From positions 2,728,001 through 2,792,000 of the forward strand of contig NZ_CP090347.1 in NCBI RefSeq assembly GCF_021398715.1: a DNA stretch of 64,000 bases, given 5' to 3'. This DNA is from Microbacterium binotii (GTDB taxonomy: Bacteria; Actinomycetota; Actinomycetes; Actinomycetales; Microbacteriaceae). The notes under the pieces are model-generated. The model worked only from the letters and a program-made list of their open reading frames with translations, was not told where the DNA came from and searched no databases. Positions 9,746 to 50,048 of the stretch are shown one piece after another. The first letter of the stretch is position 1; each line of letters opens with the position of its first letter. The translations under genes were made by a program, and so were the position numbers.

Positions 9746-9765
9746 CCTGCACAGAGCCACCTCGC

Positions 9766-9833
9766 CGAGCGAGCATTCTTTCGCCGAGCGAGCACTCGAT
9801 CGGATGCTCACTGGGCGATCGGATGCTCGCTCG
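9766..9833. repeat. 68-bp palindromic repeat, copy 1
   Basis: A long imperfect palindrome built from GAGCGAGCAT/ATGCTCGCTC-type arms lies between two convergent gene ends. The same 68-bp architecture occurs at 43122-43189 and 49981-50048. Its inner arms differ more than the other two copies do from each other. It could act as a bidirectional terminator here. Confidence 0.8.
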
Positions 9834-40739: not shown

Positions 40740-40830
40740 CTCAGATCGCGGCGAGCGCCGCATCCCGATCCGCGAGACCCGGAGACGTGTCCGCTCAGAT
40801 CGCGGCGAGCGCCGCATCCAGATCCGCGAG
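40740..40830. repeat. 54-bp offset duplication of the metB 3' end
   Basis: The 37-bp stretch starting CTCAGATCGCGGCGAGCG occurs at 40740-40776 and 40794-40830 with one mismatch. The second copy is the genuine end of metB including its stop; the first is a non-coding echo just downstream of that stop. Confidence 0.85.
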
Positions 40831-41952
40831 GAGATCCTCCGCGTCCTCGATGCCGACCGAGAGGCGCACGACCTCCACGGGGACCGCCAGTTCGGTCCCG
40901 CGCACCGACGCGTGGGTCATCGCATCGGGGTAGTTCACGAGGGACTCGACGCCCCCGAGCGACTCGGCGAGCGTGAACAGTCGCGTGGACTCGGCGAAGC
41001 GGCGGGCCGCGGCCTGGTCGGCGAGCGCGAGCGACACGATGCCGCCGAAGCCGCTCATCTGGGTACGCGCGATGTCGTGGCCGGGATGCGTCGACAGGCC
41101 GGGATAGTAGACGGCCGCCACCCGCTCGTGGCCGGCGAGGAAGTTCGCGACGGCATCGCCGTTCTCGCTGTGGCGCTGCATCCTCACACCGAGCGTCTTG
41201 ATGCCGCGCGTGGTCAGCCAGGCGTCGAAAGGGCTCGAGACCGCGCCGACGGCGAACTGCAGGAAGCGCGCGGCCTCGGCGAGCTCCGCATCGTTCGTGA
41301 CGAGGGCGCCGCCCACGACGTCGGAGTGGCCGCCGAGGTACTTGGTCGTGGAATGCACCACCACGTCCGCGCCGAGGGCGAGCGGCTGCTGCAGCGCGGG
41401 GGTCGCGAACGTGTTGTCGACCACGACCAACGCGCCCGCCGCGTGCCCCAGGCGCGCGAGGCCCGCGATGTCGCTGACCTTCAGCAGCGGGTTGGAGGGC
41501 GTCTCGACCCAGAGGATGCGGGCCGGTCGCTCCTCGAGGGCTGCGGCGACCGCATCCAGGTCGCTCATGTCGACGACGCGGAGCGTGACGCCCCACGGGC
41601 CGAGCACACGGGCGAGCAGCCTGTAGGTGCCGCCGTACACGTCGCTGCCGAGGAGGACCTCGTCGCCCGGCTTCAGCACGGCGCGCAGCAGTGCGTCCTC
41701 GGCGGCGAGTCCGGACGAGAACGACAGCGCGTGCTCGCCATGCTCGATCGCGGCGAGCTGCGTCTCGAGAGCCGTGCGGGTCGGGTTGCCGCTGCGGCCG
41801 TACTCGTAGCCGCCGCGAAGACCACCGATGCCGTCCTGCGCGAACGTCGTGCTCATGTGGATCGGGGGGATGACCGCACCGGTGGTGGGGTCGAAATCCT
41901 GCCCTGCGTGAACCGCGAGACTGCCGAAGGCGCGGGCTGCGGGGTTGGTCAT
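40795..41952 (-). CDS. metB: Cystathionine gamma-synthase family enzyme
   Basis: 385 residues of a fold-type I PLP enzyme: AVHAGQDFDPTTGAVIPPIH at the start, YEYGRSGNPTRTALE, VVVDNTFATP with the PLP-binding Asp, and HSTTKYLGGHSDVVGG with the active-site lysine. Cystathionine gamma-synthase makes cystathionine from an activated homoserine and cysteine; cystathionine gamma-lyase is a close alternative, and the pairing with a cystathionine beta-synthase could mean either direction. Its start overlaps the cbs-like stop (ATGA). Its 3' end is partly duplicated downstream. Confidence 0.9.
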   Translation of the reverse strand: MTNPAARAFGSLAVHAGQDFDPTTGAVIPPIHMSTTFAQDGIGGLRGGYEYGRSGNPTRTALETQLAAIEHGEHALSFSSGLAAEDALLRAVLKPGDEVLLGSDVYGGTYRLLARVLGPWGVTLRVVDMSDLDAVAAALEERPARILWVETPSNPLLKVSDIAGLARLGHAAGALVVVDNTFATPALQQPLALGADVVVHSTTKYLGGHSDVVGGALVTNDAELAEAARFLQFAVGAVSSPFDAWLTTRGIKTLGVRMQRHSENGDAVANFLAGHERVAAVYYPGLSTHPGHDIARTQMSGFGGIVSLALADQAAARRFAESTRLFTLAESLGGVESLVNYPDAMTHASVRGTELAVPVEVVRLSVGIEDAEDLLADLDAALAAI

Positions 41953-42959
41953 CGGTGTGCTCCTTCGTCGGTGCCGGCTCCGGAGAGCAGGCTCGTGGTC
42001 TGTTCGACGGCGAATCCGTGATCGGTCATCCAGGCGTCGTCGAAGATCTTGCTGAGGTAGCCGCGACCGTGGTCGGGCAGCACCACGACGACGACGGCAT
42101 CGGCGGGCAGCTCGCGCGCGGCTCGGAGGGCGGCGACCACCGCCATCCCGCCCGATCCCCCCACGAGCAGGCCCTCTTCACGGGCCAGGCGGCGCGTCAT
42201 CGCGAAGGCCTCGGCGTCGTCCACGCGCTCGTAGCGGTCGACGACGGCGGGGTCGAAGGTGGTGGGCCAGAAGTCCTCGCCGACCCCCTCGACGAGGTAG
42301 CCGTGCAGCGGGCCGCCGGAGTAGATCGATCCCTCCGGGTCGGCGCCGATCACCGTGACGCGACCGTCCGACGCCTGCTTGAGGAAGCGGCCCGTGCCGC
42401 TGATGGTGCCTCCGGTGCCGATGCCCGCGACGAAGTGCGTGACGGCACCGTCGGTGTCGGCCCAGATCTCGGGGCCCGTGGTCTCGAAATGTCCGCGCGG
42501 GCCGTTCTGGTTGGCGAACTGGTTCGGCTTGAACGCCCCGGGGATCTCACGCGCCAGCCGATCGGAGACGCTGTAGTACGAGTCCGGATGCTCGGGCGGA
42601 ACGGAGGTGGGTGTCATCACGACCTCGGCGCCGTAGGCCCGCAGCACCGCGACCTTCTCACCGGCGAACTTGTCGGGGACGACGAAGATCATCCGGTAGC
42701 CGCGCTCGAGGGCGACCAGCGCCAGGCCGACACCGGTGTTGCCGCTGGTGGGCTCGACGATGGTGCCGCCGGGCTGCAGCAGTCCATCGCGTTCGGCGGC
42801 GTCGATGATGTTCTTCGCGATGCGGTCCTTGGCGGAGCCGCCGGGGTTGAAGTACTCGACCTTGGCGAGCACCGTGGCAGCGATGCCGTCGGTGACCCGG
42901 TTGAGCTTGACGAGCGGGGTGTTGCCGACGAGCGCGGCGACGCTGGATGCGTAACGCAT
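41949..42959 (-). CDS. Cystathionine beta-synthase / cysteine synthase, no CBS-domain pair
   Basis: 336 residues from the ATG at 42959. Fold-type II PLP enzyme with the Schiff-base lysine in FNPGGSAKDRIAKNII, substrate loop EPTSGNTGVGLA, phosphate loop GIGTGGTISGTGR and a late GGSGGMAV. It follows actinobacterial Cbs sequence up to KIFDDAWMTDHGF but stops about 25 residues later, without the CBS regulatory pair of longer homologues. The reaction joins serine (or an activated serine) with homocysteine or sulfide. It is coupled to metB and preceded by a cysteine-rich uORF. A GTG at 43055 could give a 32-residue extension. Confidence 0.88.
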   Translation of the reverse strand: MRYASSVAALVGNTPLVKLNRVTDGIAATVLAKVEYFNPGGSAKDRIAKNIIDAAERDGLLQPGGTIVEPTSGNTGVGLALVALERGYRMIFVVPDKFAGEKVAVLRAYGAEVVMTPTSVPPEHPDSYYSVSDRLAREIPGAFKPNQFANQNGPRGHFETTGPEIWADTDGAVTHFVAGIGTGGTISGTGRFLKQASDGRVTVIGADPEGSIYSGGPLHGYLVEGVGEDFWPTTFDPAVVDRYERVDDAEAFAMTRRLAREEGLLVGGSGGMAVVAALRAARELPADAVVVVVLPDHGRGYLSKIFDDAWMTDHGFAVEQTTSLLSGAGTDEGAHR

Positions 42960-43029
42960 GGAGGTGTCCCTGGGTGCGGCGGGGCCCGGCTGCGGGGAGC
43001 CCGCGGGTTGTCGGTGGTTATCGGTGAGG

Positions 43030-43047
43030 GTGCGCGAGAGGGCGCAC
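43030..43047 (-). promoter_or_regulatory. Leader hairpin after the uORF
   Basis: GTGCGC, 6-nt loop, GCGCAC starts 8 nt after the uORF stop in the cbs leader. It is a candidate part of an attenuator or ribosome-access switch. Confidence 0.4.
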
Positions 43048-43055
43048 AGGATCAC

Positions 43056-43082
43056 TCAGCGACAACAACGACAGGTAAGCAC
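43056..43082 (-). CDS. Leaderless polycysteine uORF (MLTCRCCR)
   Basis: Nine codons on the minus strand: GTG CTT ACC TGT CGT TGT, then TGT CGC TGA. The peptide is M-L-T-C-R-C-C-R, three cysteines in eight residues. The GTG lies 6 nt after TAGGGT, so it should be translated from a leaderless mRNA. It ends 96 nt upstream of the cbs-like ATG. Polycysteine leaderless uORFs act as cysteine-responsive attenuators in mycobacteria; the position before transsulfuration genes fits that role exactly. A GTG in frame with cbs starts directly after the stop (TGAGTG), which would allow coupled reinitiation. Function here is inferred. Confidence 0.65.
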   Translation of the reverse strand: MLTCRCCR

Positions 43083-43088
43083 GCTGCG

Positions 43089-43094
43089 ACCCTA
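43089..43094 (-). promoter_or_regulatory. -10 box TAGGGT of the cbs-metB leader
   Basis: TAGGGT on the minus strand ends 6 nt before the uORF GTG at 43082. The 68-bp palindrome starts 28 bp upstream of it. Confidence 0.55.
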
Positions 43095-43121
43095 CCAGAG
43101 CCCGCGCCCGCCCCGCGCCGC

Positions 43122-43189
43122 CGAGCGAGCACCGCTTCATCGAATGAGCACTCGATCGGATGCTCACTCGATGAACGGATGCTCGTTCG
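43122..43189. repeat. 68-bp palindromic repeat, copy 2
   Basis: Nearly the whole element is self-complementary, with arms built from GAGCGAGCACCGCTTCATCG and GAATGAGCACTCGAT. It differs from copy 3 at only a handful of positions. Unlike the other copies it lies between divergent promoters. Confidence 0.85.
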
Positions 43190-49970: not shown

Positions 49971-49980
49971 GCCGCGCCGC

Positions 49981-50048
49981 CGAGTGAGCACCGTTTCATC
50001 GAATGAGCACTCGATTGGGTGCTCACTCGATGAACGGATGCTCGCTGG
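49981..50048. repeat. 68-bp palindromic repeat, copy 3
   Basis: Begins CGAGTGAGCACCGTTTCATC and ends near TGAACGGATGCTCGCTGG, nearly identical to copy 2. It lies 11 bp after a stop codon, between convergent genes, where it could act as a terminator. Confidence 0.85.

Follow-up and report, generated by a model that had tools for sequence, protein, structure and literature searches.

A short, conserved polycysteine reading frame ahead of cbs-metB in Microbacterium is a probable leaderless cysteine attenuator

Introduction

Why should a reading frame of only eight codons, three of them for cysteine, lie ahead of and in line with an operon of cysteine metabolism (cbs and a metB-type gene)? Small frames of this kind are easily missed because they are shorter than gene finders usually report. 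In leader-peptide attenuators such as those of trp and ilvB, the leader carries codons of the regulated amino acid, and a leader strand pairs with a downstream segment. For the polycysteine sORFs of Mycobacterium smegmatis, Canestrari et al. in 2020 reportedly proposed that a stalled ribosome relieves an RNA structure masking the downstream ribosome site.

Polycysteine leaderless sORF attenuators of M. smegmatis are described in three papers, with ribosome speed on the Cys codons as the proposed sensor (PMC9031893, PMC9094748, PMC13236596). Earlier, Seliverstov et al. 2005 covered amino-acid leader-peptide attenuators, actinobacterial cases included; Cys leader peptides are predicted there for the cys operons of Mycobacterium and P. 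acnes and for cbs of Bifidobacterium longum, with the mode of action left unknown and Rho suggested (PMC1262725). Here, the locus is examined in the window, meaning the whole 64-kb stretch of DNA analysed (70% GC), and in related genomes.

Results

The reading frame and its operon

The initial annotation described an upstream reading frame (uORF) preceded by TAGGGT at 6 nt and followed at 96 nt by cbs, and both letters and coordinates agree with it. TAGGGT (43094-43089, minus strand) is followed by CGCAGC (6 nt) and then by the uORF, whose letters from 43082 to 43056 are GTG CTT ACC TGT CGT TGT TGT CGC TGA, or MLTCRCCR; 96 nt separate its stop from the cbs ATG at 42959. The features of the locus are as follows.

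43089..43094, minus strand: TAGGGT, a -10-like box whose end lies 6 nt before the uORF start
43056..43082, minus strand: uORF from GTG to TGA, MLTCRCCR, with three TGT codons; read from the sequence and conserved
42967..42971, minus strand: likely Shine-Dalgarno site of cbs, AGGGA, 7 nt before the ATG; read from the sequence
41949..42959, minus strand: cbs, cystathionine beta-synthase type, 336 aa, without CBS domains (TIGR01137, PF00291)
40795..41952, minus strand: metB-type gene of the cystathionine gamma-synthase/lyase family (NF005871, PF01053), overlapping the cbs stop by 4 nt

Cbs lacks the C-terminal part, so that its TIGR01137 score of 489.6 bits (profile positions 3-324 of 457) stays below the cut-off of 510.25, and PF00291 is its only Pfam match. 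The metB-type protein scores 630.1 bits against NF005871 (cystathionine gamma-synthase; cut-off 513), a match that does not tell synthase from lyase; the enzyme is presumably a lyase. Together, the two genes probably serve reverse transsulfuration, from methionine to cysteine, the enzyme direction that we infer. A gene for a MetQ-type lipoprotein (PF03180; below the NCBIfam cut-offs) runs the opposite way to cbs-metB. No Rfam family matched at its gathering score anywhere in the 64-kb window.

The genome is a single contig of 3.29 Mb, 99.88% complete. The closest named relatives of its Cbs are from Microbacteriaceae bacterium PS02066 (97%) and then mostly from Microbacterium species, at no more than 86%. 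The host had been called Microbacteriaceae-like beforehand; the family was right, and these relatives therefore place the genome in Microbacterium. No NIR_SIR (PF01077) protein was found in the genome by a search that matched in 11 of 14 control genomes, and so it holds no sulfite reductase of that family. This is consistent with reliance on methionine or other organic sulfur. Among 99 Microbacterium genomes, 65 have NIR_SIR matches; 38 of these, with E below 1e-36 and frames mostly of about 600 aa, were read as sulfite-reductase-like and the remainder as nitrite-reductase-like. The uORFs are also found in genomes that do have a NIR_SIR enzyme.

Just upstream of the uORF promoter lies a 68-nt palindromic repeat (43121-43188), seen again at 49980-50044 and 9765-9832. 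It is matched 36 times in its own genome, a count in which several places appear once per strand, and is read as REP-like. The palindrome was considered as an operator and rejected, because it belongs to a repeat found across the genome; the GAGCA/TGCTC motifs it carries do not occur upstream of the L083 cbs.

Conservation of the uORF

The comparison drew on 79 leaders (23 named), reduced to 75 distinct ones once four identical sequences were dropped. Loss of the Cys codons among close relatives, a check that the initial annotation had called for, was not seen: every one of the 75 leaders has 2 to 5 Cys codons, hence at least two. Within the core, the second Cys is retained in 75/75, the first in 70/75 (Leu in the other 5) and the third in 69/75. 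All 214 core Cys codons are TGT; Cys usage in the 35 gene-like ORFs of the window is 9 TGT and 47 TGC, and the Cys codons of the C-terminal extension are 7 TGT and 16 TGC. Elsewhere in the uORF, synonymous variants occur at Arg (CGC/CGT/CGG), at Thr (ACC/ACG/ACT) and among the Leu codons, differences in length come in whole codons, and the stop is TGA in 73 leaders, TAG in one and TAA in one. The leaders conserve their frame, the identity of the Cys residues and the wobble base alike. A TANNNT box stands 6-7 nt before the uORF start in 73/75 leaders (6 nt in the window) as 21 different hexamers, with none in L007 and L022, and the distance from uORF stop to cbs ranges over 67-100 nt.

A close cbs was found in 75 of the 99 same-genus genomes searched, own genome included: 74 encode a Cbs with E below 1e-149 (one, G030, is cut by a contig end), and one match is partial (G034). 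Reading the upstream stretches of all 75 loci gave a uORF of the MxLTCRCCR type ahead of cbs in 56, again including our own. The 19 without it comprise 18 loci with another type of Cbs (L137-L154; start mostly MKYA, with lengths of 458-464 aa measured for 8 of them) and G030, of uncertain type.

A strict rule was then applied, namely TANNNT 6-7 nt before an ATG or GTG start, a peptide of no more than 16 residues with CC or CxC, and a limit of 260 nt. It accepts 55/56 same-genus leaders of this cbs type (own excluded), 0/18 of the other type in the genus and 0/56 Streptomyces and other loci. In other genera of Microbacteriaceae, where leaderless poly-Cys uORFs differ, 14/48 loci pass; these 48, out of 141 genomes with a match, were the 29 best-scoring plus 19 chosen. 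Among the 34 that fail, 6 hold poly-Cys ORFs that miss the rule and 28 have no accepted poly-Cys uORF. Controls on the opposite strand and in 20 rounds of dinucleotide shuffling gave 0 in every set (0/56 in each round for the own type). The uORF thus occurs far beyond chance expectation.

The pattern LTCRCC occurs in 6 of 299 family genomes, and all six matches apart from the window uORF, of which five are in other genomes and one is a further match in the own genome, were read as falling within long open frames; this search says little about the genus because only 6 of the 299 genomes belong to it. In the own genome, no further poly-Cys uORF was found near 8 other PF00291/PF01053 loci (L213, L215-L218, L220-L222; L223-L226 left out). 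A one-to-one tie between the uORF and a Cbs without its C-terminal part was also considered and is ruled out by exceptions, because G085 (460 aa, L237) and Cbs proteins of 453-459 aa in other genera have uORFs as well.

Several individual loci depart from the common arrangement. In G034 (L155/L238), cbs looks truncated, with a frame of 254 aa and a match to residues 1-181 only, and the poly-Cys uORF is retained. L165, from another genus of the family, encodes Cbs fused to an apparently MetB-type enzyme (754 aa; the second half identified by reading), with the poly-Cys uORF MRYSLCCCR 222 nt upstream. A second conserved short Cys ORF (MCPNLSFCCGR and similar) is present about 185-196 nt before cbs in L003, L006, L085 and L086, a clade related to M. 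oleivorans; it lies upstream of the uORF promoter and has no -10 box at leaderless spacing.

RNA structure of the leader

A hairpin behind the uORF stop had been pointed out from the sequence and is present in the fold of the window leader, where the following elements were recognised.

43060..43073, minus strand: 5' strand of helix P1, which is the Cys-codon stretch of the uORF (from the fold and pairing counts)
43025..43058, minus strand: P1a, a nested hairpin beginning in the stop codon (from the fold, with counterparts in relatives)
43009..43023, minus strand: anti-Cys element CGATAACCACCGACA, the 3' strand of P1 (from the fold and pairing counts)
42979..43004, minus strand: P2, a hairpin upstream of the cbs Shine-Dalgarno site (from the fold; a hairpin is found here in 75/75 leaders)

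Eight leaders were folded singly. In seven of them the partner of the Cys codons is an element farther downstream, which reads CGACGACCCCGACAG in much of the genus and CGATAAC..CGACA in the window; the exception is L010, where the codons pair with CAACAC beside the cbs Shine-Dalgarno site. In the ensemble calculation, 74/75 leaders pair their Cys stretch with downstream leader sequence at a mean of 0.5 or more. In a structure-free alignment 85.0% of P1 cells pair, against 29-64% when shifted by 1-3 columns, and 84.3% pair after letters are reassigned among sequences. Covariation in P1 is weak, with changes on both sides numbering 3 against 2.5 in shuffles, as expected when a coding side varies so little. 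A nested hairpin of at least 4 bp is present in 74/75 leaders, built from 27 different stems and beginning in the stop codon in 52.

Against shuffled sequences, P1 and P1a together have a mean z of -2.90 (n=75, none above 0; window -7.0), and the whole leader a mean z of -3.37, compared with -0.62 for an upstream control. In the computed folds, the hairpin whose 5' strand holds the Cys codons is therefore unusually stable. P2 showed no stability beyond that of shuffles in a tested segment that is incomplete in many leaders, and it was dropped as a selected helix. RNAalifold on the plain alignment returned no useful consensus (-0.34 kcal/mol). Duplex energies were likewise weak: the Cys strand against shuffled leader bodies gave a mean z of -0.74 in the 75 and -0.51 (p 0.097) in 20 leaders of other genera, and the uORF head against the cbs ribosome site gave -0.57 and -0.89. 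Those 20 leaders were chosen for having a uORF. Several, L197 and L198 among them, reproduce the layout with unrelated letters; across the 20, P1 and P1a have a mean z of -1.47, and the nested hairpin taken by itself does not reach significance (p 0.57).

Modelled effect of a stalled ribosome

When the uORF is covered by a ribosome in the model, the predicted cost of opening the cbs site falls on average by 0.99 kcal/mol for leaders of the genus and by 2.56 for the other 20. The site would be eased by more than 0.5 kcal/mol in 42/75 genus leaders (16 show the opposite) and in 16/20 elsewhere (2 opposite). Set against a shuffled-uORF control, unmasking is higher in 20 of 26 genus leaders, sampled by taking one leader in three and adding the window (p 0.002), and in 14/20 elsewhere (p 0.12). 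These p-values take no account of the relatedness of the sequences and so overstate the case. By base-pair probability, the Shine-Dalgarno site becomes less paired under a stalled ribosome in 25/75 leaders and more paired in 14, the rest being unchanged; its pairing with the uORF reaches 0.4 in 29/75 and is 0.0 in the window. The window leader's own modelled unmasking equals its control (0.66 and 0.65 kcal/mol). In relatives, then, the modelled unmasking is modest, and in the window leader it does not exceed the control.

Discussion

The uORF very likely acts as a leaderless attenuator of cbs-metB that senses cysteine through the ribosome, as in mycobacteria, and this mini-gene most likely turns cbs-metB on when cysteine is scarce. 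To judge by the spacing of the -10 box, the transcript would start at or beside the uORF GTG, so that a ribosome would begin at the 5' end and read Thr-Cys-Arg-Cys-Cys-Arg. With sufficient Cys-tRNA, it would complete the eight codons and depart, and the Cys codons would fold into P1, a helix whose pairing is computed and whose function is proposed here. With scarce Cys-tRNA, the ribosome would stall on the UGU codons and keep P1 open; in many relatives the stalled ribosome may also block pairing of the uORF head with the cbs ribosome site. Expression of cbs-metB would then supply cysteine from methionine by reverse transsulfuration. That the uORF is translated and responds to cysteine is what we infer; its role as a Cys sensor is well supported by the comparative sequence evidence, and the coupling of a stall to cbs translation is plausible in relatives on the strength of the modelling.

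Other explanations of the conserved letters fare less well. They might form a DNA or RNA site for a regulator, with the open frame as a by-product, as the uniformly TGT core Cys codons and the nearly fixed TGTCGNTGTTGTCG stretch in the genus would allow. The synonymous third bases of Thr and Arg, the interchange of TGA, TAG and TAA stops and the whole-codon length changes all speak for a coding frame instead, other genera retain poly-Cys peptides amid unrelated letters, and P1 pairing offers a reason for TGT; we consider such a site very unlikely. Equally hard to sustain is translation of the uORF from an ordinary 5' UTR, with TAGGGT serving as the Shine-Dalgarno sequence and not as a -10 box. 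TAGGGT contains AGGG and this stands 7 nt before the GTG in the window, yet TAGGGT is found in only 9/73 boxed leaders, and the commonest hexamers, TATGCT (17) and TAGACT (15), are unlike a Shine-Dalgarno site and fit TANNNT at a fixed spacing. Least credible of all is a longer Cbs starting at the GTG that adjoins the uORF stop, its translation coupled to the uORF. The initial annotation had remarked on this GTG, and in the window TGA GTG is indeed in the cbs frame (ORF 41949..43055); a meaning for it is not supported, since only 2 of the 10 leaders with TGAGTG (10/75) keep that frame, the window and L094, and neither of the nearest relatives, L002 and L083, does so. The GTG was accordingly dropped as an extended Cbs start for want of conservation.

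A further alternative keeps the Cys-sensing uORF and changes its output to transcription: the C-rich leader would permit Rho-dependent termination, and the state of P1 would gate Rho loading. Rho was put forward in 2005 for actinobacterial cys leaders on the ground that terminators are absent (PMC1262725). The present leader also lacks any run of four T (none between 43082 and 42960, read by eye), and therefore an intrinsic terminator of hairpin and U run is absent from it. The difficulty lies in the sense of the regulation, for by our reasoning P1 forms under ample cysteine and would hide the C-rich element just when termination is called for. A Rho-dependent output is improbable on this account.

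The proposed cysteine attenuator has clear precedents. With the trp and ilvB attenuators it shares codons of the regulated amino acid and a leader strand paired downstream, and unlike them it has no intrinsic terminator, and its leader peptide is not preceded by an ordinary ribosome site. With the M. smegmatis sORFs it shares a leaderless-type short Cys ORF ahead of a cysteine-metabolism operon. It differs in the actinobacterial family, in its target (cbs-metB), in having only 8 codons with a TCRCC core and, so far as mycobacterial leaders can be compared by description, in Cys codons that are all TGT and lie in a stable hairpin enclosing another one at the stop codon. The leaders of 2005 have, in the available part of the paper, the same short ORF with Cys codons near the stop, ahead of cys or cbs genes and without a terminator; no conserved hairpin is reported there for Mycobacterium, whereas one is common here to 75 leaders of one genus (PMC1262725). 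Extension of the mechanism into a new family, as first suggested for this locus, is supported, and it is less new than was stated, cys and B. longum cbs leaders having been predicted in 2005 (PMC1262725). A search of open-licence papers found none describing a leader of this sort in Microbacterium. The principle is not new, but the present case and the layout of its RNA look so.

A more specific proposal is possible, although we hold it with more doubt than confidence: that Microbacteriaceae have an undescribed class of structured attenuator, in which a minimal leaderless uORF has UGU-only Cys codons that form one strand of the regulatory helix and a stop codon within the nested hairpin, UGU being retained for the sake of pairing as well as slow decoding, and the whole rebuilt in unrelated sequence before cbs more than once. 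If true, a single RNA strand would serve as both the sensor codon run and a strand of the switch helix. On the main reading, the leaderless poly-Cys switch would be extended from mycobacteria to another actinobacterial family on a comparison of dozens of genomes, and an eight-codon sensor would offer a very small test case for how ribosomes on leaderless messages read amino-acid supply. Furthermore, the switch would be tied to the synthesis of cysteine from methionine, which fits a genome with no detected sulfite reductase domain.
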